Origin: an uncultured Clostridia bacterium
GTDB lineage: Bacteria > Bacillota > Clostridia > Oscillospirales > Acutalibacteraceae
Assembly: GCA_944384995.1 (NCBI GenBank)
Contig: CALWVN010000014.1
Location: 1-46,791 of the forward strand
DNA: 46,791 nucleotides
Direction: 5' to 3'
Shown here: piece after piece, positions 15,536 to 43,203 of the stretch
How positions within the stretch are numbered: position 1 is the first letter of the stretch
Layout: every line of letters starts with the position of its first letter
Made by a program: the position numbers and the translations under genes
The notes under the pieces: model-generated
What the model was told of the DNA's origin: nothing
Database searches by the model: none
The model's input: the letters and a program-made list of their open reading frames with translations, nothing else

Positions 15536-15835
15536 ATCGGGCGGAAAAGGTATATTAGATGCTGGACGTTAGATATTAGATGCTAGATGTGGGGTGGGGA
15601 AGTTTGCGCAAAGCCGTGGGGTCTCTGTAATTTTTTTTTGCGTGTTGTAGGGCGGGGGCTTGCTCCCGCCGCAAAATGGTAAAGCTCTTGTCTATTCTTT
15701 TCCCGGGAAAAGAATGCTTAAAATTTTCAAAACAGCGGAAGGCTTCCCCCTCTGCCCTCGGCGGGAGCAAGCCCCCGCCCTACGTCATTTCCTGCGCAGC
15801 CACAGCTTTGCGGCGTTGCTTCGTTTTGCTTTTGC
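15536..15835. repeat. Intergenic palindromic repeat cluster
   Basis: The order is a TAGATGCTGGACGTTAGATATTAGATG string (15556-15590), a GGTGGGGAAGTTTGCGCAAAGCCG block, a family-B left arm (15647-15671), a middle with a perfect palindrome (15694-15715), a family-B right arm (15759-15783) and a GCGCAGCCACAGCTTTGCGG block. The outer blocks mirror each other, so the cluster is a large nested inverted repeat. No gene is seen; the short ORFs here are shadows. Confidence 0.85.
15694..15715. promoter_or_regulatory. Candidate Noc-binding-site-like palindrome
   Basis: A perfect 22-bp palindrome centred on CCCGGG, with half-site ATTCTTTTCCC and its exact complement. The inner TTTCCCGGGAAA equals the core of the Bacillus Noc-binding sequence. 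A Noc protein is encoded at 41483. It is the only site of this quality that I found in the window. It could instead be part of the surrounding repeat. Confidence 0.4.
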
Positions 15836-15919
15836 TCCCTGCCGTCTCCTGCTATTTTGTTCAAAACCCGACAGAATCCGCCGCACCCGTTCAACTTCCC
15901 TTTTCGGTGGCTTTTTTTG

Positions 15920-15948
15920 TTTACAAATTGTCAAATTCGTGGTATGCT
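15920..15948 (+). promoter_or_regulatory. Promoter of the radical SAM gene
   Basis: TTTACA (15920-15925), a 17-bp spacer and TATGCT (15943-15948) preceded by TGG make a good extended -10 promoter 76 bp before the start codon. Confidence 0.6.
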
Positions 15949-15965
15949 AAAAATGAACTGTTAAG

Positions 15966-15977
15966 GTAAACGTTTTC
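15966..15977. promoter_or_regulatory. LacI/CcpA-like operator in the radical SAM leader
   Basis: GTAAACGTTTTC differs at one base from the GTAAACGTTTAC core found at the lacI locus and also resembles a catabolite-repression element. It lies just downstream of the promoter at 15920-15948, where a bound repressor would block transcription. Weak single-site evidence. Confidence 0.35.
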
Positions 15978-16023
15978 TCAACGCCGTGCACGGCTACCCG
16001 CCGCGGCGAAAGGAAGGATTTTT

Positions 16024-17619
16024 ATGGCGAAATCGCATAAGGTGCAGCGCGCCGCCATCGCGGTCGCGCTCGACCAAATTCTCAAGTATGTGTACAAGGA
16101 CCCTTACCCGAACCTTGTCAAGCTTGCCGATCGTGTAGGCGCGCTGTTCGGCGGGATCTTCCCCTCGGAAAACTTCAAAAAGATGAAAGCCGCCGCCGCC
16201 GACCCCGACAACGTCTGGACGCAGTATGCGGTCAGCCTCCTGCGCGACGTCGACCCGCGCGTGGCGCGGCAGATGCTCTTGTCTCTCGGCGTGGACGCAG
16301 GGCTTTACGGCACCAAGACCGTCCGTGCGCTTCGCGAAGAGCTGCACTGCAATGTGCCGTTCATCATTCTGTTCGACCCGACGAGTGCCTGCAACCTCAA
16401 ATGCAAGGGCTGCTGGGCGGCGGAGTACGGCCACAAATTGAGCCTGACAAATGAGGAGATGCAGTCCATCGTCTCGCAGGGGAAAGAGATGGGCACGCAT
16501 TTTTACATGCTCACGGGCGGCGAACCGCTTATCCGCAAAAACGACATCGTGGAGCTCGCACGCCGAAACCGCGACTGCACCTTCGTCATTTACACAAATG
16601 CCACGCTCGTCGATCAGAAGTTCTGCGAGGACATGAACGAGTGCGGCAACATCAGTTTGGCGTTGAGCCTGGAGGGTTCGGAGGAATCCAACGACTGGCG
16701 GCGCGGCGAGGGCGCATATAAGCACACGCTTGCGGCGATGGAGCTTTTGCAGAAAAACAAGTGCCTGTTCGGCATTTCGGTCTGCTATACCGCTAAGAAC
16801 GTCGATCAGGTCACGAGCGACGAATTTATTGACATGGTGCTTGAAAAGGGCGTGAAATACGCGCTCTACTTCAACTACATGCCCGTCGGGCACGATGCGG
16901 ATCCCGCGCTCATCCCCACCCCTGCGCAGCGCGAGCACATGTACGGCTGGATGAAACGCATCCGCAACTCGAAAACCGGCAAGCCGCTGTTCGTCATGGA
17001 CTTTCAGGACGACGGCGAATACGTCGGCGGGTGCATCGCGGGCGGGCGCAACTATTTCCACATCAATTCTGCGGGCGACATCGAGCCGTGCGTATTCATC
17101 CACTATTCCGATGCGAACATCCGCACGCACACGCTCAAAGAGGCGCTCAAGTCCCCGCTGTTTATGGAGTACTACCACAACCAGCCGTTTAACGACAACC
17201 ATCTGCGCCCCTGCCCCCTGCTTGAAAACCCGGAGCGGCTGCGCGAGATGGTGAAGCGCAGCGGCGCGAAGAGCTCGGATCTTCTGCACGCCGAGGACGT
17301 AGACACGCTTTGCGACAAGTGCGTGGCGTTTGCGCGCGAATGGGCGCCCGAAGCCCAGCGCATTTGGGACAGCACCCCGCACCGCGACACGCACACGCAG
17401 TATTACCGCGACACGCCGGAGGGCAAAGCGGCAGCGGCAAAGGCGGCGGAGCAAAGCGCCGACGCCCCCGAAAAAGCCGGTGAAACGTGCGCCGCGCCGG
17501 CGACCGCGCAAGACGTGCCGGCGGGCTGTGCGCACTGCGCCGCAGCGGCACAGTGCAAGGCCGCACAAAATGCGGACGCACCGGCAGATGCGGAAGATAC
17601 ACAGGAAAAGGGCGCGTGA
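16024..17619 (+). CDS. Radical SAM/SPASM-type protein with a Cys- and Ala-rich tail
   Basis: A 531-residue radical SAM enzyme. The cluster motif C123-x3-C127-x2-C130 (CNLKCKGCW) and the TGGEPL motif (residues 164-169) are intact. The C-terminal part has SPASM-like features: GGCIAGGRNYFHINSAGDIEPCVF followed by NIRTHTLKEAL, and the LRPCPLLENP and CDKC segments, which could bind an auxiliary iron-sulfur cluster. An N-terminal helical region of about 110 residues precedes the barrel. The last 70 or so residues are low-complexity Ala/Glu/Asp-rich with C489, C502, C505 and C511. AAGGAAGG precedes the ATG. The gene has its own promoter and terminator and runs head-on to replication. The product is unknown: relatives modify peptides or small molecules, and no precursor peptide is visible. 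Confidence 0.88.
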   Translation: MAKSHKVQRAAIAVALDQILKYVYKDPYPNLVKLADRVGALFGGIFPSENFKKMKAAAADPDNVWTQYAVSLLRDVDPRVARQMLLSLGVDAGLYGTKTVRALREELHCNVPFIILFDPTSACNLKCKGCWAAEYGHKLSLTNEEMQSIVSQGKEMGTHFYMLTGGEPLIRKNDIVELARRNRDCTFVIYTNATLVDQKFCEDMNECGNISLALSLEGSEESNDWRRGEGAYKHTLAAMELLQKNKCLFGISVCYTAKNVDQVTSDEFIDMVLEKGVKYALYFNYMPVGHDADPALIPTPAQREHMYGWMKRIRNSKTGKPLFVMDFQDDGEYVGGCIAGGRNYFHINSAGDIEPCVFIHYSDANIRTHTLKEALKSPLFMEYYHNQPFNDNHLRPCPLLENPERLREMVKRSGAKSSDLLHAEDVDTLCDKCVAFAREWAPEAQRIWDSTPHRDTHTQYYRDTPEGKAAAAKAAEQSADAPEKAGETCAAPATAQDVPAGCAHCAAAAQCKAAQNADAPADAEDTQEKGA

Positions 17620-17671
17620 GGCGGTTGCCGAAAAAACGGTTTTCGTAAGGAAAACAGAGAAAAATAAAAAT

Positions 17672-17709
17672 AAAGCGGTCCCGTGTCGTGTTTGACACGG
17701 GACCGCTTT
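17672..17709 (+). terminator. Rho-independent terminator of the radical SAM gene
   Basis: AAAGCGGTCCCGTGTC, a 6-nt loop, and the exact complement GACACGGGACCGCTTT form a 16-bp stem that ends in a T run, 53 bp after the stop codon. The symmetric A/T flanks allow termination from both sides. Confidence 0.9.
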
Positions 17710-17739
17710 TATGCTGTGTGGGCATCCGCAAGTAAAGCA

Positions 17740-18030
17740 AAAGCTGCGCGCCGAACGGCTACGCGAAAGCTGACCGTCCATTGCTTATCGTAGGGACAGG
17801 GCTTGTCCCTGTCCGCTTGCGATGCGCTTTCCCGCGGACAGCCGCAAGGGCTGTCCCTACGGGCTTGTACAAATTTTCGGCTTTGCGAAAAACCCGTCTG
17901 CCCCACATCTAGCATCTAATATCTAACGTCTGAAATCTAAAACGGCCAGCCGCAAGGGCTGTCCCTACGCGGTCGTGTAAATTTTTGCCTTGCTGAAAAC
18001 AATCTCTCCCTCATCTGTCTTCGTAAAGAC
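17740..18030. repeat. Intergenic palindromic repeat cluster
   Basis: Contains family-A-type arms (GTAGGGACAGGGCTTGTCCC near 17790, GGACAGCCGCAAGGGCTGTCCC near 17836 and again near 17945), a TTTCGGCTTTGCGAAAA block and an ATCTAGCATCTAATATCTAACGTCTG string (17907-17938). The module order is the mirror image of that seen at 15536-15835. The short reading frames here are not genes. Confidence 0.85.
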
Positions 18031-18088
18031 AGGGAAAGGCACAGAACCGAACCCTATCTCACACGCGGAATCGGGGCGATACAATCCA

Positions 18089-18442
18089 TCAAGGTTCCTT
18101 CCAAAAACCACCCTTGTGAAAATTTTCATTTCCAAGCGGCTTTGCCGTTAAACGAAACAGGACACAGCCGTCCGGGCAGACGATCGTTTTACTGTATTTG
18201 CCGTCTCCGCCCAGATTTTCCAAGTCCCCGCCGCTTCGGATCGCTTCCATCAGCGGGAACAACTGCATCATCGTTTTGGAGCAGATCCCGAAGCCGTCCT
18301 GATTGACGGGACAGCCATAGGTACACGTATATGTATCCCCTACCTCTTCCCCGTTGCGGCAATATCTTTCCGTGTGGTCGCCCCGCAAAAAACCGATGAC
18401 TTCGATGTTAAATTCATATTCCTCGTCGTACCATTTTTTCAT
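18089..18442 (-). CDS. TIGR04076-like small cysteine-containing protein
   Basis: A 117-residue protein of a widespread small family of unknown function. It shows the pattern strand FNIEVIGF, a Cys/Gly/Asp segment GEEVGDTYTC, then GFGICSKTMMQLFPLMEAIRSGGDLEN and a C-terminal CPDGCVLFRL. The cysteines could bind a metal, but this is not shown. I chose the ATG at 18442, which gives MKKWYDEEYEF and has GAAGGA 4-5 nt upstream; ATGs at 18454 and 18487 have poorer sites. A repeat cluster lies downstream and the Mrp gene upstream, with a terminator between them, so it may be transcribed alone. Confidence 0.65.
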   Translation of the reverse strand: MKKWYDEEYEFNIEVIGFLRGDHTERYCRNGEEVGDTYTCTYGCPVNQDGFGICSKTMMQLFPLMEAIRSGGDLENLGGDGKYSKTIVCPDGCVLFRLTAKPLGNENFHKGGFWKEP

Positions 18443-18508
18443 ACCGTCCTTCATCCCTTTCGCTTTTATTCTGCGCGCTTTCCGCATCGCCGATTTTCAA
18501 AAACGGTA

Positions 18509-18535
18509 AAGGGCATGGCGCGCAGCCATGCCCTT
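18509..18535 (-). terminator. Terminator after the Mrp gene
   Basis: AAGGGCATGGC, loop GCGCA, and GCCATGCCCTT form a perfect 11-bp stem 5 bp past the Mrp stop codon. Reading on the minus strand, a T5 run follows. Confidence 0.75.
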
Positions 18536-18539
18536 GTTT

Positions 18540-19355
18540 TTATTTCTTTTCGATCGCTTCAAGCGCGCTTTTCAAAGCGTCCGTATCGGAAAGCTCCACC
18601 GCGCCCTTGTCGGCAAGCGAGGTGTTTTTCGGGTCGATAGGCAGCCGCGCAAGCACGGGGATCCCATATTCCGCAGCGACGCCGTCGAGCTTGCTTTCGC
18701 CGAAAACGGCGTGCCGTTTTTTGCAGTCGGGGCATTCGAACCAGCTCATGTTCTCGATGAAGCCCAAAACGGGAATGTTCATTTCTTTCGCCATATTGTA
18801 CGCCTTTTTGACGATCAGCGTGACGAGCTCCTGCGGGGTGGTGACGACCAGAATGCCGTCGAGCGGCAGGGATTGGAACACCGTCAGCGGCACGTCGCCC
18901 GTGCCGGGAGGCATATCGACGAACATGTAATCCACGTCGCCCCAGATGACCTCCTGCCAAAACTGCTGGATCATGCCGGAGATCACGGGTCCGCGCCAGA
19001 TGACCGGGGCGTCCTCTTTTTCAAGCAGCAGATTGACGCTCATCACGCGGATGCCGGTTTTTGTCTCCATCGGGAAAATGCCGTCGGCGCTGCCCTCGGC
19101 GCGCCCGTGCAGCCCGAACATTTTGGGGATCGACGGGCCGGTGACGTCCGCGTCGAGGATGGCGGTCTGGAAGCCTTGGGATTGCGCGGCGACCGCAAGC
19201 ATCGCGGTCACGGTGCTTTTGCCGACGCCGCCCTTGCCGCTGACCACGCCGATGACGTGCTTTACCGTGCTGTATTGATTCGCGGGCAGGCGCAGGTCGC
19301 GCGCGGCGCAGTCCTGCGAGCAGGATGCGCAGTCATGGGAACAGGATTCACTCAT
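18540..19355 (-). CDS. mrp: Mrp/NBP35-family P-loop ATPase (Fe-S cluster carrier)
   Basis: A 271-residue cytoplasmic ATPase that carries and transfers iron-sulfur clusters. It has the deviant Walker A GKGGVGKST (residues 40-48), DADVTGPS (68-75), DMPPGTGD (147-154) and the bridging-cluster motif C208-P-D-C211 in FECPDCKK. The N-terminus has a second cysteine set, C5-x3-C9-x2-C12-x3-C16, typical of anaerobe NBP35-type Mrp proteins and absent from short ApbC. AAGGAG lies 11 nt before the ATG. It may serve Fe-S proteins such as the nearby radical SAM enzyme, but there is no operon link. Confidence 0.93.
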   Translation of the reverse strand: MSESCSHDCASCSQDCAARDLRLPANQYSTVKHVIGVVSGKGGVGKSTVTAMLAVAAQSQGFQTAILDADVTGPSIPKMFGLHGRAEGSADGIFPMETKTGIRVMSVNLLLEKEDAPVIWRGPVISGMIQQFWQEVIWGDVDYMFVDMPPGTGDVPLTVFQSLPLDGILVVTTPQELVTLIVKKAYNMAKEMNIPVLGFIENMSWFECPDCKKRHAVFGESKLDGVAAEYGIPVLARLPIDPKNTSLADKGAVELSDTDALKSALEAIEKK

Positions 19356-19376
19356 TTTTTCAGATCTCCTTATTAG

Positions 19377-19800
19377 ATGTTAGATGCTGGATGCTGGACA
19401 CTGGACGCGCAAAGGGCAAATCTGTGGAAAGCCGAAAATTGGCAGAAATCGTAGGGCGGGGGCTTGCTCCCGCCGTATGAAGAACAGATTTTATCTCTCC
19501 CCCTTCCGCCTTGCGGCGGCATCCCCCTCGTCAGAGGGGGAAACGCACAACCGGAAGTCAGTACAAACCTTTTCCTCCCTCTGATGAGGGAGGTGGCGCG
19601 CGCTTTGCGCGTGACGGAGGGAGAGACCGTAGGGCGGGGGCTTGCTCCCGCCGTGGGCAATGGTTCAACCCAACCATTTCTTGTTTATCCTAAAAAATTT
19701 CTGCCCGTATTCCCCGGGAAGGACAAAATTCGTATTTTTTGCGGCGGGGGCAAGCCCCCGCCCTACACTTATAGGGAGCAAAAGCCCCTGGATTCCGATA
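19377..19800. repeat. Intergenic repeat cluster with two CTCTCCC elements
   Basis: Starts with a TTAGATGCTGGATGCTGGACACTGG string, then family-B arms at about 19451-19475, 19629-19653 and 19742-19766. Between them is a pair of family-C elements in opposite orientations (about 19494-19545 and 19570-19625), recognisable from the CCCTCGTCAGAGGGG and CCTCTGATGAGGGAGG palindromes. No gene is supported in this 490-bp gap. Confidence 0.85.
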
Positions 19801-20359: not shown

Positions 20360-21827
20360 ATTGGATGGTCTCCAAAACCAGCAGGATGATCGCGATGATC
20401 ATGGGCGCGCTGCACAAAAAGGCGCGGTTCTTTTCGCGCGTGTCGAGCTGTGTCCTCGTTTTTGTGAGCGGCACGCGGGCATAGCGCTTTGCGTACACGA
20501 TCGCGCACACAAGCCCCGCGACGAACACCAGTGCCATAAGCCCCAGCGTGATGAGCGCCGCCGCTTCTTCGGGCAGCAGGTCGTACGCCGCCTCCGAGCA
20601 GACTGCGATCAGGTTATTGCAGAAGTGGATGATCACGCCCGTCCACATGGAGCCCGTGGCAATGACGGCATAGCCGATGGCAAGCCCTGCGATAAACGCA
20701 AAGGGGATCTGCACCATGTTGCCGTGCATAAGCGCGAACACGAACGCCGACATCAGCAGCGCAAACTTCTCGCCGTAGCGCCGCAGCGGCTGCATCACCA
20801 CCCCGCGCACGGCAAATTCCTCAATAAGCGCGGGCAGGACGGCAGTCTGCAGGATGCGCAGCAAAAACGTCGCGCCGCCCGTGATCGCGAAATCGTCGGA
20901 CGGGGAAATAAATCGGATGCCGAAGATCGATTCGACAAACATGGAAAAGAAATTCGTGGCATAGTTGCCCACCATGCAGCACATCAGCGCGGCAAAAATC
21001 AAAAGCACGGTCACACCGCCGTTTACGGGCGTACCGAGATTCAGCTCGCCGAGCGCCTGCCTTTTGCGTAGAAAACGGTAGACACAGTAAAACGGGACGC
21101 CGATGACCACGGTGGAATACAGGGCGTTGAAGCAAATATAGAATATGGAATTGGTTTCGTACACCTCAAAAAAGCCCGGGATGAGCGCCAGCGCGAAGCT
21201 GATTAAGAACGGCAGCGCCGTGAACGCGATGACGGCAAGCCCCGTGGCGTTGCTGATGCGGCGGATCTGTGTCTGATCGCGCAGCTTTTCCGGCGACATA
21301 TAGACCTTGGTATTCGGCGCGGGCGGCCGATAGCCGTAAGGCGTCTGCCCCTGGCTATAAGGCGGGCGGGGGTTTTGCGGGTTCTGCGCGCCATAGGGCG
21401 GGCGCTGCCCGTACGGGTTCTGTGTTCCGTACGGCGGGCGGTTCGCATAGCCCGTGTTTTGGGTATACGGATTCTGCGCGCTGTTCGGCACACGGTTCGC
21501 ATAGCCCGTGTTTTGGGCATACGGATTCTGCGCGCTGTTCGGTGCACGGTTCGCATAGCCCGTGTTTTGGGCATATGGATTCTGCGCGCTGTTCGGCGCA
21601 CGGTTCACATACGGATTTTGCGCAAAATTCGGCTGCTGCGCGGTATACGGTGCGCGCGCAGTTTGGGACGGCGCCGCCTGTTCGGGCGTCTTTGCCGTCT
21701 GCGGGTTTTGCACATTTTGCGGGTTTTGCACAGGTTGTACAGGCTGCGTGCCCGGCGCGGGCGGAGCTGCCCCTTGCCCGTTGTGTGCTGCCTGCGTGTT
21801 CTGCGCGTTGTTTTGCATATTCTCCAT
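20346..21827 (-). CDS. CPBP-family intramembrane metalloprotease with proline-rich repeat N-terminus
   Basis: A 493-residue membrane protein. The C-terminal 300 residues carry several hydrophobic segments and the CPBP (CAAX protease/bacteriocin-processing) signature: E336-E337-x3-R341 in EEFAVRGVVMQPLRRYG, then FALMHGN and HFCNN. The N-terminal 170 residues are hydrophilic and rich in Pro, Asn, Gln, Tyr and Ala, including three exact-register 18-residue repeats of the YANRAPNSAQNPYAQNTG type at 76-129. I chose the ATG at 21827 (MENMQNN) because GGAAGAGAG precedes it; the ATG 6 codons earlier has no site. Members of the family cleave prenylated or other membrane peptides, and the substrate here is unknown. 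Confidence 0.88.
   Translation of the reverse strand: MENMQNNAQNTQAAHNGQGAAPPAPGTQPVQPVQNPQNVQNPQTAKTPEQAAPSQTARAPYTAQQPNFAQNPYVNRAPNSAQNPYAQNTGYANRAPNSAQNPYAQNTGYANRVPNSAQNPYTQNTGYANRPPYGTQNPYGQRPPYGAQNPQNPRPPYSQGQTPYGYRPPAPNTKVYMSPEKLRDQTQIRRISNATGLAVIAFTALPFLISFALALIPGFFEVYETNSIFYICFNALYSTVVIGVPFYCVYRFLRKRQALGELNLGTPVNGGVTVLLIFAALMCCMVGNYATNFFSMFVESIFGIRFISPSDDFAITGGATFLLRILQTAVLPALIEEFAVRGVVMQPLRRYGEKFALLMSAFVFALMHGNMVQIPFAFIAGLAIGYAVIATGSMWTGVIIHFCNNLIAVCSEAAYDLLPEEAAALITLGLMALVFVAGLVCAIVYAKRYARVPLTKTRTQLDTREKNRAFLCSAPMIIAIILLVLETIQYVEF
21441..21602. repeat. 54-bp in-frame tandem repeat in the CPBP protease gene
   Basis: Three units with period 54 start at 21441, 21495 and 21549, with a partial unit at 21603. 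They encode 18-residue Pro/Asn/Gln-rich repeats. A few third-position differences (Ala/Val, Gln/Thr) separate the copies. Copy number is likely to vary between strains. Confidence 0.9.
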
Positions 21828-24764: not shown

Positions 24765-25320
24765 TAGATGTCAGATAGTAGATGTTAGATGTTAGATGTT
24801 AGATGTTAGATGTGGGTGGTTCGGTTCTAAGCGCAACCGCGGCTGCGCGGAAATCGAATGTCTCTTGTAGGGCGCGGGCTTGCTCGCGCCGCATAAAGTA
24901 CAGAGTTTGATTTTGCTTTCGGGGGTTCTGATAGGGCGTTTTCAGAACAAACAAAACCGGTTTTGCCGCCCTACCGCCCTCGGCGCGAGCAAGCCCGCGC
25001 CCTACGATCTCTCCCTCCGGCAAAACGGTGTACACACCGTTTTGCCACCTCCCTCGTCAGAGGGAGGATATGGTTTGTACAGACTTTCGGCCTTTCTCTT
25101 TGCCCCCTCTGACGAGGGGGCTGTCTTGGCGGCAGTCACGTCGCCAAGACTGGGGGAGAGACAAAGTTTGTACGAAGTTTCTCTCCCTCCGGTAAAACGG
25201 CATGTTTGCCGTTTTACCACCGCCAACGGCGCCGTCCCCTTTGTCTACTGCGCAGACCTTTCCCCGCACCGCGGGGAATCACCCTCATCAGAGGGAGGAA
25301 CGAGCTTATCAAACTATTTT
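24765..25320. repeat. Large repeat cluster between gyrB and gyrA
   Basis: The order is a TAGATGTTAGATGTTAGATG array (24765-24812), a GCGCAACCGCGGCTGCGCGG block, a family-B pair at about 24867-24893 and 24978-25003, and then three family-C elements: 25011-25066, 25104-25160 and 25183-25305. The last has a longer interior containing a GTCCCCTTTGTC...CGCGGGGAATC module. The intervening open frames are not genes. Confidence 0.88.
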
Positions 25321-27324: not shown

Positions 27325-27580
27325 TTCAGATGCTGGATTTTAGAAGTTAGATTTTAAATGTAGGGCGGGGGCTTGCTCCCGCCGAAAAGTAAAAAGAATA
27401 AATTTTTTACCTTTATTTACTAAGAATTTCAAACCGTATCTTTTCGGAACAGCAGAAAATTTTTTCTGCCCTCGGCGGGAGCAGATTCTCCGAATCCCGA
27501 ACCCTTTTGTCCGCTACGCGGACATTTCCCCTGTTAGGGGAATCACCCGCCCTACAGATTTTGCTCTACCGCTTCCGCTT
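27325..27580. repeat. Repeat cluster between remB and gyrB
   Basis: Contains a TTTTAGAAGTTAGATTTTAAATG string, a family-B left arm at 27359-27384, a right arm CGGCGGGAGCA interrupted by the 61-bp GATTC...GAATC element at 27484-27544, and the end of the arm (ACCCGCCCTAC), then a CTTCCGCTTTCTAATCTCCGG string. Confidence 0.85.
27484..27544. repeat. 61-bp GATTC...GAATC element, copy 1
   Basis: Starts GATTCTCCGAATCCCGAACC, contains a short GTCCGCTACGCGGAC hairpin and CCCCTGTTAGGGG, and ends GAATC. It sits inside the right arm of a family-B palindrome. Three more copies lie at 32505-32563, 36695-36753 and 38526-38584. Confidence 0.85.
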
Positions 27581-27581
27581 T

Positions 27582-27839
27582 CTAATCTCCGGCTTCCGTT
27601 TTCAACCGCTTGAGCAGCGTGCCGGAGAGCACGGGTGAAATGTACACGCGCCGTTTGCCGTTTTCTACCGCCACGACGAAGGTGCGCGGCAGCTCATAAG
27701 ACACAGTCACGGCGTCGCCGCCTTTTTCCGCAGCCGAAAGGTATTCGCGTGAATCGCGCATAACGGTGGTATTGTCGAGGTCGAACACGCCCAAAATATC
27801 GCGGGCGCGCACAAGAGCGCCGCCGAGGTCAAGCATCAT
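27582..27839 (-). CDS. remB: RemB-like DUF370 protein
   Basis: An 85-residue protein at the position of yaaB/remB between recF and gyrB. The start MMLDLGGALVRARDILGVFDLDNTT and the later TFVVAVENGKRRVYISPVLSGTLLKRL match the DUF370 regulators related to RemA, a DNA-binding biofilm-matrix activator in Bacillus. I chose the ATG at 27839, whose ATGA overlaps the recF stop; GAGGGGGG lies about 9 nt upstream. A longer frame from 27881 would start inside recF and is not likely. What the protein regulates here is not known. Confidence 0.85.
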   Translation of the reverse strand: MMLDLGGALVRARDILGVFDLDNTTVMRDSREYLSAAEKGGDAVTVSYELPRTFVVAVENGKRRVYISPVLSGTLLKRLKTEAGD

Positions 27840-28944: not shown

Positions 28945-29205
28945 TTAGACGCTGGATTCTAGATTCTAGATTCTAGATTTTAGATGCTAGACGCAGGGTG
29001 GGGAAGTTTTGCGTGAAGCTGCGGAACGCGTGATCCGTAGGGACAGCCCTTGCGGCTGTCCGTTTCCGGAAGTCAGAATTTAGAAGTCAGAGTACAGATA
29101 TCAGAGGTCAGAAGCGATGCAGGTAGGTTTTCACAAAGCTGCGGTTGTGCGTGAAATCTTCCTGCACCACATCTGATATCCGTTCTCTAACTTCTGCCCT
29201 CTGAA
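28945..29205. repeat. Repeat cluster between yaaA and recF
   Basis: Direct TAGATTCTAGATTTTAGATG strings (28957-28992), a GGTGGGGAAGTTTTGCGTGAAGC block, a family-A arm at 29037-29062, a CAGAATTTAGAAGTCAGAG string (29073-29110) and its mirror ending in TCTGAATTTTACTTTCTG. No gene is seen. Confidence 0.8.
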
Positions 29206-29207
29206 TT

Positions 29208-29474
29208 TTACTTTCTGTCCTCTGCTTTTTGCACTTTATATTCGATCCCATTAAATAGGAACCGGTCGCCGTCATGCAGCTTTTTCCCGCGGGAAAGGCA
29301 CACTTCCCCGTTGACGCGCACATCGCCCTCGGTAATGACAAGCTTTGCCTGTCCCCCGGTAGAAACGGCGTTTGCCAATTTCAGCGCCGCGTCCAGACGG
29401 ATAAATTCTGTTGTAATCGGGAGAGTGCGCGTCTCTTTTTTGGCGATACGCGCCGTGATCTTGCGCGGCGTCAT
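29208..29474 (-). CDS. yaaA: S4-domain RNA-binding protein YaaA
   Basis: An 88-residue protein with one S4 RNA-binding domain (FIRLDAALKLANAVSTGGQAK, EGDVRVNGEVCLSRGKKLHDGD). It sits between dnaN and recF exactly as in Bacillus, where a ribosome-related role has been suggested. The ATG at 29474 overlaps the dnaN stop codon (ATGA). It carries about 15 basic N-terminal residues more than the short Bacillus form. The longer frame from 29591 lies inside dnaN and is rejected. Confidence 0.9.
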   Translation of the reverse strand: MTPRKITARIAKKETRTLPITTEFIRLDAALKLANAVSTGGQAKLVITEGDVRVNGEVCLSRGKKLHDGDRFLFNGIEYKVQKAEDRK

Positions 29475-32447: not shown

Positions 32448-32815
32448 ACGGTAGGGCGCGGGCTTGCTCGCGCCGTGTATGCGACTTCTGTATCGGCGGG
32501 GGCAGATTCTCTGAATCCCGAACCCTTTTGTCGCTGCGCGACATTTCCCCTGCCAGAGGAATCACCCCCGCCCCTACAACTGCGAAAATTCGGTTTCTGC
32601 ACAGCCGCGGCTATGCGTGAAACTAGCCTGCCCCACGTCTAACATCTAATATCTAACGTCTGAAATCTAAAACGGACAGCCGCAAGGGCTGTCCCTACGG
32701 GTGCGCGTTTCCTTTCGGTTTCCTGCAAACCCGCCTGCACCGCTTCTGCCGTCTAACGTCTGTATTCTGCGCTCCGGCTTGCACATCCGACATCTACCAT
32801 CTAAAACTACATCTT
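32448..32815. repeat. Repeat cluster in the origin region
   Basis: A family-B left arm (32451-32476), a right arm interrupted by the 59-bp GATTC...GAATC element (32505-32563) and closing with CCCCGCCCCTAC, a GCACAGCCGCGGCTATGCG block, a family of ACATCTAATATCTAACGTCTG strings (32639-32672), a family-A arm (32672-32700) and a second set of CTAACGTCTGTATTC strings. The module order is the same as in other gaps. Confidence 0.85.
32505..32563. repeat. 59-bp GATTC...GAATC element, copy 2
   Basis: GATTCTCTGAATCCCGAACC, then TGTCGCTGCGCGACA hairpin, CCCCTGCCAGAGG and GAATC. It is inserted in the right arm of a family-B palindrome at the same point as the other three copies. Confidence 0.85.
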
Positions 32816-33786: not shown

Positions 33787-34145
33787 GGCGCAGAAGCCAG
33801 AAATCAGAAGACAGATATCAGAAGAGGTATGGGTAGATTTTTTTAAAAGCTGCGGCTTTGCTGAATATGAAAAATCTGCTGAAACCTATAGGGGTTTGTG
33901 ATTCCCCTAACGGGGTTTCTCCATTCCTATAACTCTCCCTCCGTCACGGCGTTCCGCCGTGCCACCTCCCTCGACAGAGGGAGGAATGGACTGTGAAAAC
34001 TTTTAATTAAGCGTTTCCCCCTCTGACGAGGGGGATGCCGCCGTCAGGCGGCAGGGGGAGAGAAAAAAGAAGTGTTTTCTTACGGCTACGTACTGACTTC
34101 CCCACCCCACATCTAGCATCCAGAATCTAACATCCAGTATCTAAC
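33787..34145. repeat. Repeat cluster between yidD and yidC
   Basis: A CAGAAATCAGAAGACAGATATCAG string (33790-33822), a CTGCGGCTTTGCTGAA block, a GATTCCCCTAACGGGG fragment, two family-C elements (about 33931-33985 and 34016-34062), a GACTTCCCCACCCCACATC block and an ATCTAGCATCCAGAATCTAAC string (34112-34143). No gene is seen. Confidence 0.85.
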
Positions 34146-36204: not shown

Positions 36205-36231
36205 AAAAGCGGCGGAGCTCCCGCCGCTTTT
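36205..36231 (+). terminator. Terminator of the yidC-jag operon
   Basis: AAAAGCGGCGG, loop AGCTC, CCGCCGCTTTT form an 11-bp stem ending in a T run, 9 bp past the jag stop. Confidence 0.92.
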
Positions 36232-36960
36232 AGATTTTGGATGCTGGATGCTGGATGCTAGACGTGCGAACCAGAGTTTAGAATACAGACGTTAGATGTC
36301 AGATACGGCGTGGGTGGGTTTCCAAGAAGCCGAAAAAAACGCGAACCCGTAGGGACAGCCCTTGCGGCTGTCCGCGTGCAGAGAGCATGGATGGCTTTGC
36401 AGTACGTGAAAAATCTGCTTGAACTTGTAGGGGCGGGGCTTAAGTGCCCGCCCGAGCAGAGTGCGGAAAGAAAACAGTTTGTGTCTGTTATGAAAGTTGT
36501 GATTCTGATATTCGCCGTTAACCGATTACAAAACCCAGCTTCCTTGCGGGCGGGCGCTTAAGCCCCGCCCCTACAACAGCAAAGATTCGATTCACTGTGC
36601 AGCCGCACCTTTACGGGAAGCAGAAAATTCAATTCCCCGTGTAGGGCGCGGGCTTGCTCGCGCCGCGTATGCGACTTCTGTCTCGGCGGGAGCAGATTCT
36701 CCGAATCCCAAACCCTTTTGTCGCTGCGCGACATTTCCCCTGACATGGGAATCTCCCCCGCCCTACGCCCCTACAGGTTTCAGCAGAAGTTTACTTGTTT
36801 TCGCAGCCGAAAGGTTATACATACACGCGGATTGTGAAAAATATGCCCACACCGCATCTGATCTCTGCTATCTGAATTCCGTCTTCTAAAAGCGGACAGC
36901 CGCAAGGGCTGTCCCTACGGATTGCGGCACTCTACGGCTGCGTACAATCCGCGCCACCCC
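36232..36960. repeat. Large repeat cluster upstream of mnmE
   Basis: The order is a TTTGGATGCTGGATGCTGGATG string, a family-A arm (36350-36375), a GTAGGGGCGGGGCTTAAG left arm (36428-36452) with its mirror CTTAAGCCCCGCCCCTAC (36558-36576), a CTGTGCAGCCGCACC block, a family-B left arm (36642-36667), a right arm interrupted by the 59-bp element (36695-36753), then a unit closely matching the 131-bp repeat of the window start (about 36770-36890), and a second family-A arm (36893-36920). It encodes no recognisable gene. Confidence 0.88.
36695..36753. repeat. 59-bp GATTC...GAATC element, copy 3
   Basis: Same structure as copies 1, 2 and 4, with TGTCGCTGCGCGACA in the middle and CCCCTGACATGGG near the end, nested in a family-B right arm. 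Confidence 0.85.
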
Positions 36961-38351: not shown

Positions 38352-38690
38352 AAATCAGATGTCAGAAGTTAGAAAACAGAAATCAGATGCGGTGCAGTTG
38401 GGTTTTTCACAAAACCGCATGTTTATATAAACTTTCGGCTGCGAAATAAATTAAAATTTTGCTGAATCCTGTAGGGCGGGGGCTTTGCTCCCGCCGAGAC
38501 AGAAGTCGCATACACGGCGCGAGCAGATTCTCCGAATCCCGAACCCTTTTGTCGCTTCGCGACATTTCCCCTAACAGGGGAATCACCCGCGCCCTACCAC
38601 TACGGATTTTATTTTTTCTGCGCAGCCGCACCGTCTCGGAAAACCGCCTGTATCGCTTCTGACATCTAACCTCTGTATTCTGTATTCTGA
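38352..38690. repeat. Repeat cluster between mnmE and mnmG
   Basis: A CAGATGTCAGAAGTTAGAAAACAG string, a GGTGCAGTTGGGTTTTTCACAAAACCGC block, a family-B left arm (38471-38495), a right arm interrupted by the 59-bp element (38526-38584), a CTGCGCAGCCGCACCG block and a TTCTGACATCTAACCTCTG string. This is the full left-centre-right order of the composite. Confidence 0.88.
38526..38584. repeat. 59-bp GATTC...GAATC element, copy 4
   Basis: GATTCTCCGAATCCCGAACC, TGTCGCTTCGCGACA hairpin, CCCCTAACAGGGG, GAATC, nested in a family-B right arm. Confidence 0.85.
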
Positions 38691-38705
38691 TAAGGGAACA
38701 TAACT

Positions 38706-40577
38706 ATGGACTATTTTGCAAAACAATATGACGTTGCCGTGATCGGCGCGGGGCACGCGGGCATTGAAGCCGGCCTTGCCGCCGCGAGACTCGGCTGCAC
38801 GGTCGGGGTGTTCACCATCAACCTTGACTGGATCGGGAACATGCCCTGCAACCCCTCTATCGGCGGCACGTCAAAGGGACATCTGGTGCGCGAGATCGAC
38901 GCGCTCGGCGGCGAAATGGGCAAGGCGGCGGACAAAACGGAAATTCAGTCGCGCATGCTCAACCGCGGTAAGGGTCCTGCTGTGCACTCCCTGCGCGCGC
39001 AGATCGACCGCCGCGAATATGCAAAATACATGAAGCACGCGCTCGAACGCCAGGAGCGATTGGATGTACGCCAAGCGGAAATCGTCGACCTGTACCGCGC
39101 GGACGACGGGCTTTGGACGCTTAAAACGCGGCTCGAAGCCATTTACTCGGCGAAATGCGTTGTCCTCGCAACGGGGACGTTCCTCGGCGGGCGTATCTAC
39201 ATCGGCGACATCTCTTACGAAAGCGGTCCGGACGGTATGTTCCCCGCAACGGCGCTTTCTGCGGCGCTCAAACGCCTGCACATCCCCCTGCGCCGCTTTA
39301 AAACGGGTACGCCCGCACGCGTCAACCGCCGCAGCGTGGATTTTTCCGGGATGGAGGTGCAAAAAGGCGACGAAGCGACTGTGCCGTTTTCTTTCGATAC
39401 GGAGACCCCGCCCGAAAATAAGGCGGATTGCTACATCACTTATACGAACGACGCGACCAAGCAGGTCATTCTCGAAAATATCGACTCGTCCCCCCTCTAC
39501 GGCGGCAAAATTCACGGCGTGGGGCCGCGCTACTGCCCCAGCTTTGAGGATAAGGTCATGCGCTTCCCCGACAAGGAACGCCACCAGCTGTTTGTAGAGC
39601 CCTGCGGCTTAGATACCGAGGAAATGTATTTGCAGGGGATGTCCTCTTCCCTGCCCGAAGCCGTGCAGCTGCAATTTTTGCGCACGATCCCGGGGCTCGA
39701 ACACGTGGAGATCATGCGCACTGCCTACGCGATCGAATACGACTGCGTCGACCCGCTCGCGCTGTCTCCCTCGCTGGAATTTCTCGATCTGGAAGGCCTG
39801 TTCGGCGCGGGGCAGTTCAACGGCTCGTCCGGCTACGAGGAGGCGGCGGCGCAGGGCCTGATCGCGGGCATCAACGCCGCGCGCAAGGTGCAGGGGAAAG
39901 ACCCTTTCGTGCTCGACCGCGCCACGTCCTACATCGGCACGCTCATTGACGATCTCGTGACCAAGGGCTGTGCCGACCCCTACCGCATGATGACCTCGCG
40001 CTCGGAATACCGCCTTTTGCTGCGGCAGGACAACGCCGACCTGCGCCTGACGCCTATGGGCCACGAGCTCGGGCTGGTCTCGGACGAAAAATACGCCCGA
40101 TTTCTCAAAAAGGCCGGGCAGATCGAAGCCGAACGACGCCGCGCCGAGGAAACGACCATCCCGCCGAGCGACGGCTTGCAGGCGCTGCTTGTTTCACGTG
40201 AAACATCGCCGATGAAAACGGGCATGAAGCTGGCGGAGCTTCTGCGCCGCCCGCAGCTGGACTATGATGTGCTCGCGCCCTTTGACCCGACGCGCCCCGA
40301 CCTGCCGAACGCCGTGTTTGAGCAGGTGGAGATCGCGCTCAAATACGAGGGCTACATCCGCCGTCAGGAGGCGCAGGTGCGCGAAATGCGTCGCTTGGAG
40401 GGCAAACGCATCCCCGACGGTATCTGCTATGACAACATCGACGGTCTGCGGCTCGAAGCGCGCGAAAAGCTCGGTAAGGCGCGCCCGCAGAACGTCGGGC
40501 AGGCGTCGCGCATCAGCGGCGTCTCCCCCGCCGACATCTCCGTTTTGCTCATTTACCTTGCCAAGGAGGGGTATTGA
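38706..40577 (+). CDS. mnmG: tRNA uridine-34 carboxymethylaminomethylation enzyme MnmG
   Basis: The 623-residue FAD enzyme that partners MnmE. The FAD dinucleotide motif GAGHAGIEAG is at 14-23. PCNPSIGGTSKGHLVREIDALGG, GTFLGGRIYIG and the YCPSFEDKVMRFPDKERHQLFVEPCG block are canonical, and the C-terminal helical domain ends ISGVSPADISVLLIYLAK. AAGGGA precedes the ATG. The stop overlaps the rsmG start (TGATG). A perfect parS site lies within its coding region at 40190-40205. Confidence 0.98.
   Translation: MDYFAKQYDVAVIGAGHAGIEAGLAAARLGCTVGVFTINLDWIGNMPCNPSIGGTSKGHLVREIDALGGEMGKAADKTEIQSRMLNRGKGPAVHSLRAQIDRREYAKYMKHALERQERLDVRQAEIVDLYRADDGLWTLKTRLEAIYSAKCVVLATGTFLGGRIYIGDISYESGPDGMFPATALSAALKRLHIPLRRFKTGTPARVNRRSVDFSGMEVQKGDEATVPFSFDTETPPENKADCYITYTNDATKQVILENIDSSPLYGGKIHGVGPRYCPSFEDKVMRFPDKERHQLFVEPCGLDTEEMYLQGMSSSLPEAVQLQFLRTIPGLEHVEIMRTAYAIEYDCVDPLALSPSLEFLDLEGLFGAGQFNGSSGYEEAAAQGLIAGINAARKVQGKDPFVLDRATSYIGTLIDDLVTKGCADPYRMMTSRSEYRLLLRQDNADLRLTPMGHELGLVSDEKYARFLKKAGQIEAERRRAEETTIPPSDGLQALLVSRETSPMKTGMKLAELLRRPQLDYDVLAPFDPTRPDLPNAVFEQVEIALKYEGYIRRQEAQVREMRRLEGKRIPDGICYDNIDGLRLEAREKLGKARPQNVGQASRISGVSPADISVLLIYLAKEGY
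40190..40205. promoter_or_regulatory. parS site inside mnmG
   Basis: TGTTTCACGTGAAACA is identical to the Bacillus parS consensus. ParB-CTP clamps load here and spread, and ParA and Noc-related functions follow. It lies about 8 kb from the presumed origin, within the coding sequence, and reads as VSRET in the protein. Confidence 0.93.
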
Positions 40578-41290
40578 TGCTCAATTTTCCGCTGTTGGAA
40601 CGCACGCTCGCCGCGCACGGTGTGACGCTCGGCAAAGAAGCTCTCGCGCGGCTCGACCTGTATGCCGAACGGCTGATCGAAACCAACCGCCGATTCAATC
40701 TGACCGCCGTGACCGACCCCGACGAGGTCACGGTCAAGCACTTTGCGGATTCGCTGGTGCTGCTCGGGAAAACGGATATCCCTAAAGGCGCGTCGCTTTT
40801 GGACGTCGGCACGGGCGCAGGCTTTCCGGGACTGGCACTCAAGCTCGCGCGACCCGACCTGCAAGTTGCTTTTTTGGACGGCACGCGCAAAAAGCTGGGC
40901 TTTATTTCGTCCGTCCTCGAAGAAACGGGGCTCGCCGGCGAAACCCTGCACCTGCGCGCCGAGGAAGCAGGAAAACTGCCGGAATACCGCGAAAAATTTG
41001 ACTTCGTGACGGCGCGCGCCGTGGCGGATATGGCGGTGCTTTCGGAATACTGCCTCCCTTTCGTGCGCGTGGGCGGGCTGTTTCTCGCCATGAAATCCGC
41101 CGCCGCCGAAGAGGAAATTCAAAACGCGGCGGGCGCAGTTCGGCTGCTCGGCGGGAAGGCGGAGCAAAATCTTTTGTTTGATCTCGTCGAAAACACGCCG
41201 CGGCGCATTGTTTTTGTGCGGAAAATATCGCAAACTCCGGCAAAATACCCGCGTGCTTCCGCAAAAATCGCGAAAAGCCCCTTAAAATAA
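40577..41290 (+). CDS. rsmG: 16S rRNA (guanine-527-N7)-methyltransferase RsmG
   Basis: A 237-residue class I SAM methyltransferase, GidB type. It has the N-terminal helix ALARLDLYAERLIETNRRFNLTAVTDPDE, a KHFADSL block, the SAM motif LLDVGTGAGFPGLAL and TARAVADMAVLSEYCLPFVRVGG. The ATG at 40577 follows AAGGAGGGG and overlaps the mnmG stop by one base. A TTG one codon earlier is possible but unnecessary. Confidence 0.96.
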   Translation: MLNFPLLERTLAAHGVTLGKEALARLDLYAERLIETNRRFNLTAVTDPDEVTVKHFADSLVLLGKTDIPKGASLLDVGTGAGFPGLALKLARPDLQVAFLDGTRKKLGFISSVLEETGLAGETLHLRAEEAGKLPEYREKFDFVTARAVADMAVLSEYCLPFVRVGGLFLAMKSAAAEEEIQNAAGAVRLLGGKAEQNLLFDLVENTPRRIVFVRKISQTPAKYPRASAKIAKSPLK

Positions 41291-41336
41291 AGGAAAAAAG
41301 CCGTGAATTGCCGCGTTTTCGGACGAACGCTTTTTC

Positions 41337-41366
41337 TTTACAAATCCGCCCCGCCCGTGCTAAGCT
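41337..41366 (+). promoter_or_regulatory. Probable noc promoter
   Basis: TTTACA (41337-41342), an 18-bp spacer and TAAGCT (41361-41366) preceded by TGC. The -10 box lies inside the loop of the hairpin at 41349-41383. Confidence 0.4.
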
Positions 41367-41383
41367 AATGCTGTCGGGCGGGG
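41349..41383 (+). terminator. Hairpin between rsmG and noc
   Basis: CCCCGCCCG and its exact complement CGGGCGGGG form a 9-bp stem around a 17-nt loop, followed by AAATTTTTC. It may end the mnmG-rsmG transcript while the loop carries the noc promoter. Confidence 0.45.
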
Positions 41384-41482
41384 AAATTTTTCAAAGCCTT
41401 CGCTTGGACAAGCCGGGCGGGGCGCTTTCCCCGACGGGATTCTGTGTAAAGGAAAGGGCGGCTTTCGCCCGCGGAAAAAAGG

Positions 41483-42313
41483 ATGAAAACACCGAAGGTC
41501 AAAAGCGCGGGTCAGATCTTCCTGATCCCGCAGGAAAACATAGCGCCGAATCCCAACCAGCCGCGGCAGCGGTTCGATTACGACGAGCTGGAGGGGCTGG
41601 CGCAAAGCATCCGGCAGAACGGCATTTTACAGCCGATCACGGTGCGCCAGACCGAAACAGGCTTCGAGCTGATCTCGGGCGAACGGCGGCTGCGTGCGGC
41701 GCGGCTTGTGGGGCTTACCAAGATCCCCGCCATCGTTGCCGAGCTCGACAACAAAAATTCCGCCGTGTTTTCACTCATTGAAAACCTGCAAAGGCAGGAT
41801 CTTGATTGCTTTGAGGAGGCGGAGGCGATCGACCGCCTGGTGACGGACTACGGCATGAGCCGCGAGGAACTCAGCCGCAAGCTCGGCAAAGCGCCGTCTA
41901 CCCTCTCTAACAAGCTGCGGCTTCTCCGCCTGCCGGAGGACATGCGCTACAGGCTAACGCGCGGCGGACTTTCGGAGCGCCATGCACGGGCGCTTTTACA
42001 GCTTGACAACGACGGACAGCGCGCGCGTGCGCTGGGGATCATGCTCGACCGCCATCTGACTGTGCAGGAAAGCGAACGGCTTGTCGAGCAGATGCTCGCG
42101 AAAACCGGCAAAAACCGCACGAACTTCCGCGGGGTGCGCGATGTGCGCGTGTTTATCAACACCTTGAACCACGCCGTGGACGCCATTCGGCGCGCAGGCG
42201 TGGATGCAGACGCCGCCAAGAGCGAAACGCCGGAATACATCGAATACGTCGTGCGTATCCCGAAATTAGAACAGCTCAAGCTTCCCCTCTCTGCGGAGGA
42301 CGAGGCGGTCTGA
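41483..42313 (+). CDS. noc: Nucleoid occlusion protein Noc (ParB paralogue)
   Basis: A 276-residue ParB/Noc-type DNA-binding protein. The N-terminal CTP-binding domain has PNPNQPRQRFD, ISGERRLRAARLVGL and SLIENLQRQDLDCFEEAEA; the central helix-turn-helix is GKAPSTLSNKLRLLRLP followed by SERHARALLQL. The C-terminal RDVRVFINTLNHAVDAIRRAGVDAD and EYIEYVVRIPK resemble Noc rather than Spo0J. The ATG at 41483 is the only start, since a stop lies 12 codons upstream, and the ribosome-binding site is poor (AAAAAGG abutting the ATG). The amphipathic N-terminal helix that anchors Bacillus Noc to the membrane is missing. The distinct parB gene is at 45035. Confidence 0.88.
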   Translation: MKTPKVKSAGQIFLIPQENIAPNPNQPRQRFDYDELEGLAQSIRQNGILQPITVRQTETGFELISGERRLRAARLVGLTKIPAIVAELDNKNSAVFSLIENLQRQDLDCFEEAEAIDRLVTDYGMSREELSRKLGKAPSTLSNKLRLLRLPEDMRYRLTRGGLSERHARALLQLDNDGQRARALGIMLDRHLTVQESERLVEQMLAKTGKNRTNFRGVRDVRVFINTLNHAVDAIRRAGVDADAAKSETPEYIEYVVRIPKLEQLKLPLSAEDEAV

Positions 42314-42600
42314 AGGCAGATTTCAGACATCAGAAATCAGAGGTCAGAAGTGCGGCGGGACAGGTTCACCGAAGCCGAAAATCAGCGACCCCGTAGGGAC
42401 AGCCCTTGCGGCTGGCCGTTTTCAGAAGTCGGATTTCAGAAATCAGAGGGCAGAAGTGCGGAGGGACAGGTTCACCGAAGCCGAAAATCAGCGACCCCGT
42501 AGGGACAGCCCTTGCGGCTGTCCGCTTTCAGAAGTCGGATTTCAGAAATCAGAGGTCAGATGTGCGGCGGGAGCAAGCCCCCGCCCTACACACTGCACAT
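42314..42600. repeat. 106-bp tandem repeat downstream of noc
   Basis: Units start at 42331 and 42437, with a partial third at 42543. Each carries CAGAAATCAGAGG, a GTGCGGnGGGACAGGTTCACCGAAGCCG block, and a family-A arm (GTAGGGACAGCCCTTGCGGC). The partial third unit runs into a family-B right arm (42562-42590). It differs from the 131-bp and 145-bp repeats but is made of the same modules. The rest of the gap to 42800 shows no gene. Confidence 0.9.
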
Positions 42601-42802
42601 TTCTCCGCGCAGCGGCGGCGCTGCAAAAGGCTTACCTTTCCGCGTCTGATTTTTCGCCTCTCACCGCTCCTCTCTGAATCCTGCCCGCCCCGCGCCGCAG
42701 GCGGCGCGCTAACTTCGTAAAACGTGGGCGGCGGCCCACCCCTGTCGCCGTTCCGTTTTAAATATCCATATCCTTCTCTTTCACACCCCACATCCACAGC
42801 GG

Positions 42803-42836
42803 AACAGCGGTTCGGGCATATTGCCCGGCCGCTGTT
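42803..42836 (+). terminator. Terminator-like hairpin after the noc region
   Basis: AACAGCGG...CGGGCA, loop TAT, TGCCCG...CCGCTGTT, with a two-base bulge on one side and one on the other, followed by TCGCCTTTT. Confidence 0.6.
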
Positions 42837-42840
42837 TCGC

Positions 42841-43130
42841 CTTTTAGATATTAGATTACAGATATTAGACGTTAGATGCGGTGCAGGCGGATTTTACGCA
42901 AAGCCGCGGCTGCGCAAAAAATATAATCTGAAGCGGTAGGGGCGGGTGATCGAAATTTCGGTTTCCCGCACAGCCGCTGCTTCGCCTTTTAGATATTAGA
43001 TTACAGATATTAGACGTTAGATGCGGTGCAGGCGGATTTTACGCAAAGCCGCGGCTGCGCAAAAAATATAATCTGAAGCGGTAGGGGCGGGTGATCGAAA
43101 TTTCGGTTTCCCGCACAGCCGCGGCTTTGC
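42841..43130. repeat. 145-bp tandem duplication upstream of parA
   Basis: Two almost identical 145-bp units, 42841-42985 and 42986-43130, differ only near the end (GCTGCTTCGC against GCGGCTTTGC). Each holds a TTAGATATTAGATTACAGATATTAGACG string, a GCGGTGCAGGCGGATTTTACGCAAAGCCGCGGCTGCGC block and a GTAGGGGCGG arm. Near-identity suggests a recent duplication. The flanking remainder up to 43200 and 43220-43440 holds degenerate module pieces and no gene. Confidence 0.92.
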
Positions 43131-43203
43131 ACGAATCCGCTCATACCGCTTCTAATCCCTGTATTCTGACCTCTGACTTTTGGAAGCGCCCCCTCACACC
43201 GTA

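Follow-up and report, generated by a model that had tools for sequence, protein, structure and literature searches.

Nested palindromic repeats around a replication origin

The window analysed here is the whole of contig C14 (46,791 bases) of the draft genome of an uncultured Clostridia bacterium (G000; 1.89 Mb in 22 contigs, 86% complete, contamination 0.02). It carries gyrA, gyrB, recF, dnaN, dnaA, yidC, jag, mnmE, mnmG, rsmG and parA with two ParB-type genes around it, a gene set that identifies it as the replication-origin region. Its intergenic gaps contained two families of palindromic repeats, repetitive extragenic palindromes (REPs) and arrays of heptads, one nested inside the other, and an origin-centred pattern was seen in four species (G000, G038, G025 and G002). 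On balance, these sequences are probably nested non-autonomous palindromic repeats that have spread, or been retained, close to the origin. The surprising point is that distinct repeat families share this origin-centred pattern; local copying and conversion is the explanation preferred here, and a host role of the arrays is a live and more interesting rival. The closest named relatives in a MnmE comparison were gut and rumen Clostridia/Oscillospiraceae assemblies.

Inner and outer repeat units

To judge from their sequence, the GTAGGG and CCCTAC arms of the inner unit are GTAG-tagged REPs and their inverted pairs (REPINs, REP doublets forming hairpins), which are of a known kind. A GTAG foot was found at the base of a 20-40 bp imperfect palindrome, and REP pairs were convergent in 39 cases and divergent in 3; a GTAG foot with a palindrome and frequent inverted pairing is also how GTAG REPs and REPINs are described in PMC3733652. 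Multi-species counts of arrays and modules, here and below, refer to array-bearing contigs fetched from three species (for G038, the fetched contigs were the array-bearing ones only), and REPs in the module survey were defined as GTAGGG plus a stem of at least 8 with at most 1 mismatch. One REP queried in G000 gave 32 matches at 3 or fewer mismatches.

The strings described in the original prediction as TAGATnT or CAGAnnT were arrays of usually five heptads (YAGANNY; exactly five in 174 of 202 arrays). Fifteen forward and 12 reverse YAGANNN arrays were present in the window (at least 3 heptads, A or G allowed at heptad base 2), whereas 10 Markov-resampled sequences gave 0 on average. CRISPRs and simple tandem repeats were set aside as explanations, since most arrays are fixed in length and their heptads differ between copies. 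The arrays form the ends of an inverted repeat of their own, about 120 bp long: among the 13 close array pairs listed, 6 contained no REP, 5 of these with a middle of 56-60 bp and one with 75 bp, and 4 of the 6 were 120-124 bp long, two of them orthologous. One such element in the window (approximately 29081-29203) consisted of an array, a 59-bp middle and an inverted array. The same array-middle-array plan was found in a genome of another genus (G303), with middles of 37-135 bp. The presence of REP-free heptad-armed units in this clade and in G303 indicates that the outer unit is separate from the REPs.

Sixteen array pairs (10 in G038, 4 in G000 and 2 in G025) had a longer middle of approximately 260-290 bp, 328-353 bp overall. 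The 10 composites of G038 shared a common REPIN type, inverted in 2 of them, and a mean pairwise identity of 0.714 (minimum 0.647) vs. 0.547 (maximum 0.674) for their flanks; in the remaining six (G000 and G025) some of the interiors differed. REPINs lie in the middle of the heptad-armed element, which yields composites of approximately 330-350 bp. In the recF-dnaN gap, G038 contained an extra nested GTAGGGG...CCCCTAC element with respect to G000.

The original prediction had proposed a single cassette with its modules in invariant order, mirror-symmetric in at least ten gaps. The modules it named (GTAGGG/CCCTAC arms, a GCAAAGCCGCGGC block and variable centres) were present at the places given, and the polarity grammar was confirmed: it was followed by 136 of the 233 pairs of neighbouring modules up to 300 bp apart, vs. 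58.1 +/- 6.0 (maximum 76) under 500 orientation shuffles, with 66 adjacent pairs convergent and 9 divergent. The order was not invariant, as 35 pairs placed the REP outside the array, and tandem pairs were also found (28 array-array and 12 REP-REP). Mirror symmetry was clear at 15536-15835, 38352-38690 and 36232-36960 (single-stranded DNA (ssDNA) fold z = -3.9, -7.2 and -10.4, respectively) but not at 32448-32815, which lacked the left array (z = -1.8, with 6 of 100 shuffles equally good) and was one-sided, as were several other gaps. The number of gaps held only loosely: the window contained 14 module groups, 8 of them with both array and REP, and the groups at 19374 and 27327-27598 joined under a looser array rule only (A/G at heptad base 2). 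That the system is more than a simple REP was borne out, and the 10 G038 composites (~330-350 bp) showed full-length homology; the single cassette resolved into two palindromic families, with the REP/REPIN inside the heptad-armed element.

Concentration around the replication origin

The concentration of the repeats around the origin had been missed by the original prediction, and the genome-wide repeat library that it proposed would consequently not show the system throughout the genome. Seven G000 contigs tiled collinearly on one 278,716-bp contig of G025 holding the dnaA region. These contigs, 14% of the assembly, included 54 of the 61 exact five-heptad matches of G000 (47 of 54 after merging overlaps; p ~1e-33). 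Twenty-two of the 28 matches of G025 were on its oriC contig, and 78 of the 87 matches of G038 were on six contigs (299 kb) matching that contig. Array counts dropped with distance from oriC, taken as the dnaA-rpmH gap (Spearman -0.83 in G000 and -0.71 in G025; 20-kb bins, G000 positions interpolated and edge bins partly covered). In the more distant G002, for which 22 contigs were sampled to 20 kb, 9 of 12 array-bearing contigs matched the G025 origin contig vs. none of the 10 array-less ones (Fisher p = 5e-4).

Repeated 14-mers (3 or more copies, coding sequences included) amounted to 47.1 bases per kb in the origin group of contigs vs. 2.7-5.3 in 10 equal-sized subsets of the rest, an excess indicating that the REPs and the CTCCCTC...GAGGGAGG-type repeat share the origin pattern. 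One origin-centred pattern was common to two separate repeat families and, judging by k-mer content, to a third. REPs are normally described as chromosome-wide: according to PMC3733652, the majority of REP families occur all over the genome, the blocks of T. roseum being the exception.

The third repeat type (CTCCCTCC...GAGGGAGG, CCCCCTCTGACGAGGGGG) was located at 25015-25310 and 33955-34065 of the window, and was likewise concentrated in the origin contigs.

In the family as a whole, the array pattern had matches in 35 of 398 genomes and 24 of 135 genera, some of the matches being simple tandem heptads and not this element. The heavy carriers of arrays were G000, G038, G025, G002, G303, G320 and G149. 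The backward-pattern control for this search was not clean (18 vs. 61 matches in G000 and 64 vs. 69 in G303): arrays in which AGA is followed by T or C are also picked up by AGAYNNN. One genome (G426) had no array-pattern matches and 193 control matches, so that a different heptad repeat must be abundant in it. Other heptad-period strings, of the AATTATG and AATTGTC types, were also seen in relatives (L269 near 150-190; L084).

The transposase of the inner unit

The original prediction had suggested a search for a REP-associated tyrosine transposase (RAYT), and such a gene with a matching REP was found in G000. A profile built from 11 RAYT-like proteins detected a single RAYT gene in this genome (C6:12806-13327, not on the window contig; E = 1.4e-63); 23 of the 39 genomes searched in the genus had a hit, G000 included. 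The REP GTAGGGACAGCC...GGCTGTCCG was located at the 5' edge of the G000 open frame, and an inverted copy with one base different was in frame after the HUH motif. No repeated word was more frequent in the origin contigs than the 14-mers of this REP, 27 of whose 35 copies were found there (857 kb sampled, the rest of the genome being sampled more thinly; L004 was left out, as it overlaps L190).

Thirty-one RAYT loci were examined (30 from the profile search plus L213), and the HUH motif was located in 28. A REP pair flanked the motif in 17 of these 28 genes (for 16 of them at the usual places within the gene), a single REP was found in 5 and none in 6; the counts depend on the rule, a looser one giving two REPs in one of the genes scored as having none.

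In the RAYT loci of the genus (L231-L260 and L213), the genes often had an inverted pair of identical or near-identical REPs in frame, the first lying 120-141 nt ahead of the HUH codons and the second 42-90 nt beyond them. The two REPs matched within a gene and differed between genes, and both positions were occupied in 16 of the 28 located genes. In-frame REPs are not a novelty, since they have already been described for TnpAREP subclass 2.4, whose genes carry their own REPs inserted in frame according to PMC6006769.

Turnover between relatives and a model for spread

Syntenic gaps differed between species, in agreement with the original prediction; relatives were without single elements or had them in tandem. 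The gyrA-gyrB gap of G000 was 591 bp long and included a composite, whereas in G038 and G025 the composite was missing and the gap was 207-208 bp. The jag-mnmE gap was 83 bp in G001, 75 bp in G036 and 151 bp in G033, as compared with 794 bp in G000; for G001 and G036, the mnmE-mnmG gap was 29 bp when measured from the stop codon. Array-free mnmE-mnmG gaps could also be long (~995 bp in G037 and 944 bp in G017). Units of 106 and 145 bp were present in tandem in the window; at the site of the 106-bp pair (42317..42591), G025 retained the first array only. Heptad exchange between arrays (see below), together with unit duplication and deletion, suggests recombination between copies.

The inner GTAG REP, often as an inverted pair, would be copied by the single-strand transposase RAYT/TnpAREP; in G000, its own RAYT, elsewhere in the genome, carries the matching REP and may be that enzyme. 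REPINs would have come to lie in the centre of the ~120-bp heptad-armed inverted repeat, and the resulting composite of ~340 bp would then multiply. Arrays, once present, may exchange heptads, and units may duplicate or be deleted via recombination between copies. The elements would accumulate between the stop codon and the Shine-Dalgarno (SD) sequence, where they are probably least harmful, and would spread or survive mainly within ~110-190 kb of oriC. The preferred cause of this confinement is local replication-linked copying plus conversion between nearby repeats. No mobiliser was identified for the heptad element, the genomes not having been screened systematically for array-flanked transposase genes.

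Several observations weigh against this model. Several of the presence/absence cases were deletions or replacements and not clean insertions, and no clean target-site duplication was seen at the junctions read in empty-site comparisons. The profile search did not detect a RAYT in the other array carriers G038, G025, G002 and G037, so that current mobilisation is unsupported there, and a RAYT as the sole mobiliser in all carriers was rejected for present-day G038, G025 and G002. The REP of G017 had 138 matches over many contigs, spread genome-wide, and the 69 array matches of G303 were on 34 contigs (dnaA being on C15); neither family is therefore inherently tied to the origin, and origin confinement as a general property of both was discarded. 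Finally, core constraint in orthologous arrays exceeded the expectation for dead repeats, unless conversion explains it. In G017, the mnmE contig (C26; 143.5 kb, 6% of the genome) included 23 of the REP places listed (p ~2e-5), a mild origin-side excess.

Conservation of the array core and a putative host function

Array change was compared in orthologous arrays with enough outer flank aligned: 47, 21 and 19 of 84 for G000-G038, G000-G025 and G038-G025, respectively. Between G000 and G038 (47 arrays), the core G was changed in 2 of 242 positions and the core A in 23 of 459, vs. 114 of 550 for the variable triplet and 586 of 3910 (15.0%) for four-fold sites (window genes tested, up to 13). Between G000 and G025 (21 arrays), the core G was changed in 4 of 106 positions and the triplets in 65 of 244, with 33.3% for four-fold sites. 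The inner arm changed by 13-15% between G000 and G038, near the four-fold rate, and by 16-17% between G000 and G025, half that rate, making four-fold sites a rough yardstick. Motif conditioning of the query array can lower the apparent core rate about 2-fold at most, and the core G was far below even so. By this neutral yardstick, the array core was maintained.

The core could be preserved either by purifying selection or by whole-heptad exchange between arrays. Exchange does occur: orthologous heptads with 0, 1, 2 and 3 changes numbered 95, 44, 20 and 5 vs. 84, 63, 16 and 1 expected (6 gapped arrays of the 47 left out), heptads with 2-3 changes being in excess, and the triplets changed above the four-fold rate between G000 and G038. 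Among the 10 arrays whose triplets differed just once or twice, changes affected 6 of 150 core positions vs. 15 of 120 triplet positions, which favours some selection but is not proof of it.

Maintenance of the core is what would be expected if the arrays were sites used by the host, i.e. binding sites of a putative DNA-binding protein marking or organising the origin region, with the hairpins as their vehicle and selection retaining arrays near oriC. Other chromosome regions are marked by parS, Noc sites and matS. This explanation is a serious possibility, though clearly the less probable one: it accounts for the origin-centred pattern in four species, for the core conservation against both G038 and G025, and for the usual length of exactly five heptads. 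Heptad replacement and the high triplet rate, in contrast, denote conversion or slippage, and these processes could by themselves be enough to preserve the core; the REPs and the CTCCCTC-type repeat are equally confined, pointing to a regional and not an array-specific cause; and the G303 arrays are scattered. In a bolder form, which is more doubtful still, the five-heptad YAGANNY arrays would be a preserved address code that marks the origin domain, read by a putative protein, spread by REPIN-capturing hairpin elements and kept dense by selection, in other words a system made of repeats that would be the equivalent of parS, Noc sites or matS. The system makes two ideas testable: that chromosome position alone drives small-repeat amplification, or that selfish hairpins were turned into origin-domain sites.

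Position at gene edges and RNA folding

Arrays were often found at gene edges. Among 61 start-side arrays with an assigned start codon, 22 ended 14-18 nt before it and the others were scattered; 21 of the 40 with an assigned SD were 1-6 nt from it; and 10 of 99 stop-side arrays overlapped the stop codon at one fixed offset. In the survey, 23 of the 202 arrays were unassigned and 19 of 80 start-side arrays had no start codon. In the window, the seven-heptad array 5' of gyrA stopped 4 nt short of the SD. Three REP-free units folded into long RNA hairpins (z -4.3 for the window element at ~29081-29203, and -6.1 and -7.4), two of them with a small internal loop approximately every seven bases.

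These data could mean that arrays and hairpins act in the mRNA, as untranslated-region elements affecting translation or stability of the flanking genes, and a precedent exists in the TAACTGA arrays 5' of start codons, proposed as translational sites (PMC4679880). Such a role is improbable as the general explanation: it does not predict origin confinement, and packing at gene edges is equally expected if elements are tolerated only between the stop codon and the SD. Moreover, starts were assigned by a simple rule with a slight bias to near starts, and the arrays counted include orthologues of the three species. Selected base pairing between the two arms also found no support, as the arms of one unit were no more alike than arms of different units (0.424 within vs. 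0.445 between at variable positions of 35 units, p = 0.83): no co-variation was found.

It is highly improbable that the system is an ordinary mosaic of REPs or bacterial interspersed mosaic elements (BIMEs) in which the heptad arrays are a mere spacer: complex REP mosaics are well known and REPs usually adjoin arrays (83 inverted REP-inverted array pairs), but this is contradicted by the REP-free heptad-armed units of this clade and G303, and G017, from the same genus, has REPs in abundance but not one exact array. An assembly or binning artefact, with foreign repeat-rich contigs or misassembled repeats, might be suspected in an incomplete draft whose contigs may end at repeats, and can be practically discarded given the collinearity of the repeat-rich G000 contigs and six G038 contigs with the G025 origin contig, the low contamination and a pattern common to four genomes.

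Other features of the window

The repeat features of the window are listed in Table 1. No Rfam family was found in the window at gathering scores. Two parS-like sites were present at 40190 and 43204 (0 and 1 mismatch to TGTTTCACGTGAAACA), one of them within mnmG, and G025 and G038 had two each at 2 or fewer mismatches on the fetched contigs. Two repeats were located inside genes: 33-bp repeats with GGAAATATTTTTCCGAT palindromes in a GH94-domain gene (9807-9933), and a repeat of 54-bp period in an Rce1-like protease frame (21392-21607).

Table 1. Repeat features of the window. H5 and H7, arrays of five and seven heptads.
Position	Strand	Feature	Remarks
83..606	-	131-bp tandem repeat at the left end of the contig, inverted heptad arrays alternating with CCCGCCCCTAC arms	three inverted arrays in a row at 176-469
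3390..3510		double-foot GTAG REP 3390-3418 (GTAGGGACAGCC...GGCTGTCCCTAC) and inverted REP 3486-3510	
15556..15783		composite: H5 array 15556-15590, REP 15647-15671, inverted REP 15759-15783 (REPIN)	ssDNA fold z -3.9
17790..17968		REP, inverted REPs, inverted H5 array 17905-17939	
19374..19766		degenerate H5 array 19374-19408, two REPs, one inverted REP	
24765..25005		composite 5' of gyrA: H7 array 24765-24813, REP 24867, inverted REP reaching 25005	
27327..27598		composite of the gyrB-recF gap: 4-heptad array, REP 27360, CCCTAC 27550-27555, inverted 4-heptad array	
28946..29224		H7 array, REP 29037-29061, then REP-free heptad-armed element	
32451..32803		one-sided composite of the dnaA-rpmH gap: REP, CCCTAC, inverted arrays 32635-32669 and 32742-32776, inverted REP between them	
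33791..34143		H5 array 33791-33825 and inverted H5 array 34109-34143 around CTCCCTCC...GAGGGAGG-type repeat, 5' of yidC	
36231..36918		largest composite, jag-mnmE gap: H5, H5, REP, REPIN 36427-36574, second GTAGGG...CCCTAC pair 36641-36766, inverted H5, inverted REP	z -10.4
38356..38689		full composite, mnmE-mnmG gap: H5, arm, GTAGGG...CCCTAC insert 38471-38597, arm, inverted H5	ssDNA fold z -7.2
42317..42591		106-bp units (H5 array and REP), two in tandem, then array and inverted REP	
42845..43188		tandem 145-bp units (H5 array, GCAAAGCCGCGGCTGC palindrome, GTAGGGGCGGGT arm) and degenerate inverted array	
43380..43414	-	inverted H5 array 5' of parA	

Comparison with known repeat systems

The outer heptad-armed unit and the nested composite could not be matched to any described family in the literature searched (open-licence papers only), in which no report of heptad-armed elements or of origin-confined REPs was found. 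The closest parallels are partial.

Miniature inverted-repeat transposable elements (MITEs) include the BOX and RU elements. The heptad-armed unit resembles them in being short, inverted-repeat, non-autonomous, intergenic and multi-copy, and the REP-free units have terminal inverted repeats and a defined short length. It differs from them in that its ends are five-heptad arrays and not transposase-type terminal repeats; no duplicated target was seen, and the unit has no known partner transposase. Cyanobacterial small dispersed repeats and short tandemly repeated repetitive (STRR) heptanucleotide sequences also combine nested small repeats and heptamer arrays between genes, a likeness of description.

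The TAACTGA heptamer arrays of Beggiatoaceae, Cyanobacteria and Bacteroidetes, according to PMC4679880, occur in sets of 2-6, mostly just 5' of start codons. They share with the present arrays the seven-base period, the few copies and the placement near start codons. The window arrays were not direct repeats of TAACTGA: their heptads are degenerate (YAGANNY), usually five, form the inverted ends of a hairpin element and are also found at stop codons.

The inner unit corresponds to the GTAG REP/REPIN/BIME systems with a RAYT (TnpAREP), especially subclass 2.4: it shares the GTAG foot with a palindrome, the inverted pairs, the double-foot REP at 3390-3418 and the intergenic place. The likeness to subclass 2.4 rests on the in-gene REPs, the G000 enzyme being a Y1 HUH transposase with its own REP in frame (as in PMC6006769). 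The present system departs from known REP systems in that the RAYT search was negative in three of its four main carriers, and in that the repeats are concentrated in an origin-centred domain (compared with PMC3733652) and nested inside a second palindromic element. The system would also be a case of RAYT-linked REPs nested in a distinct element, with the composite then multiplying.

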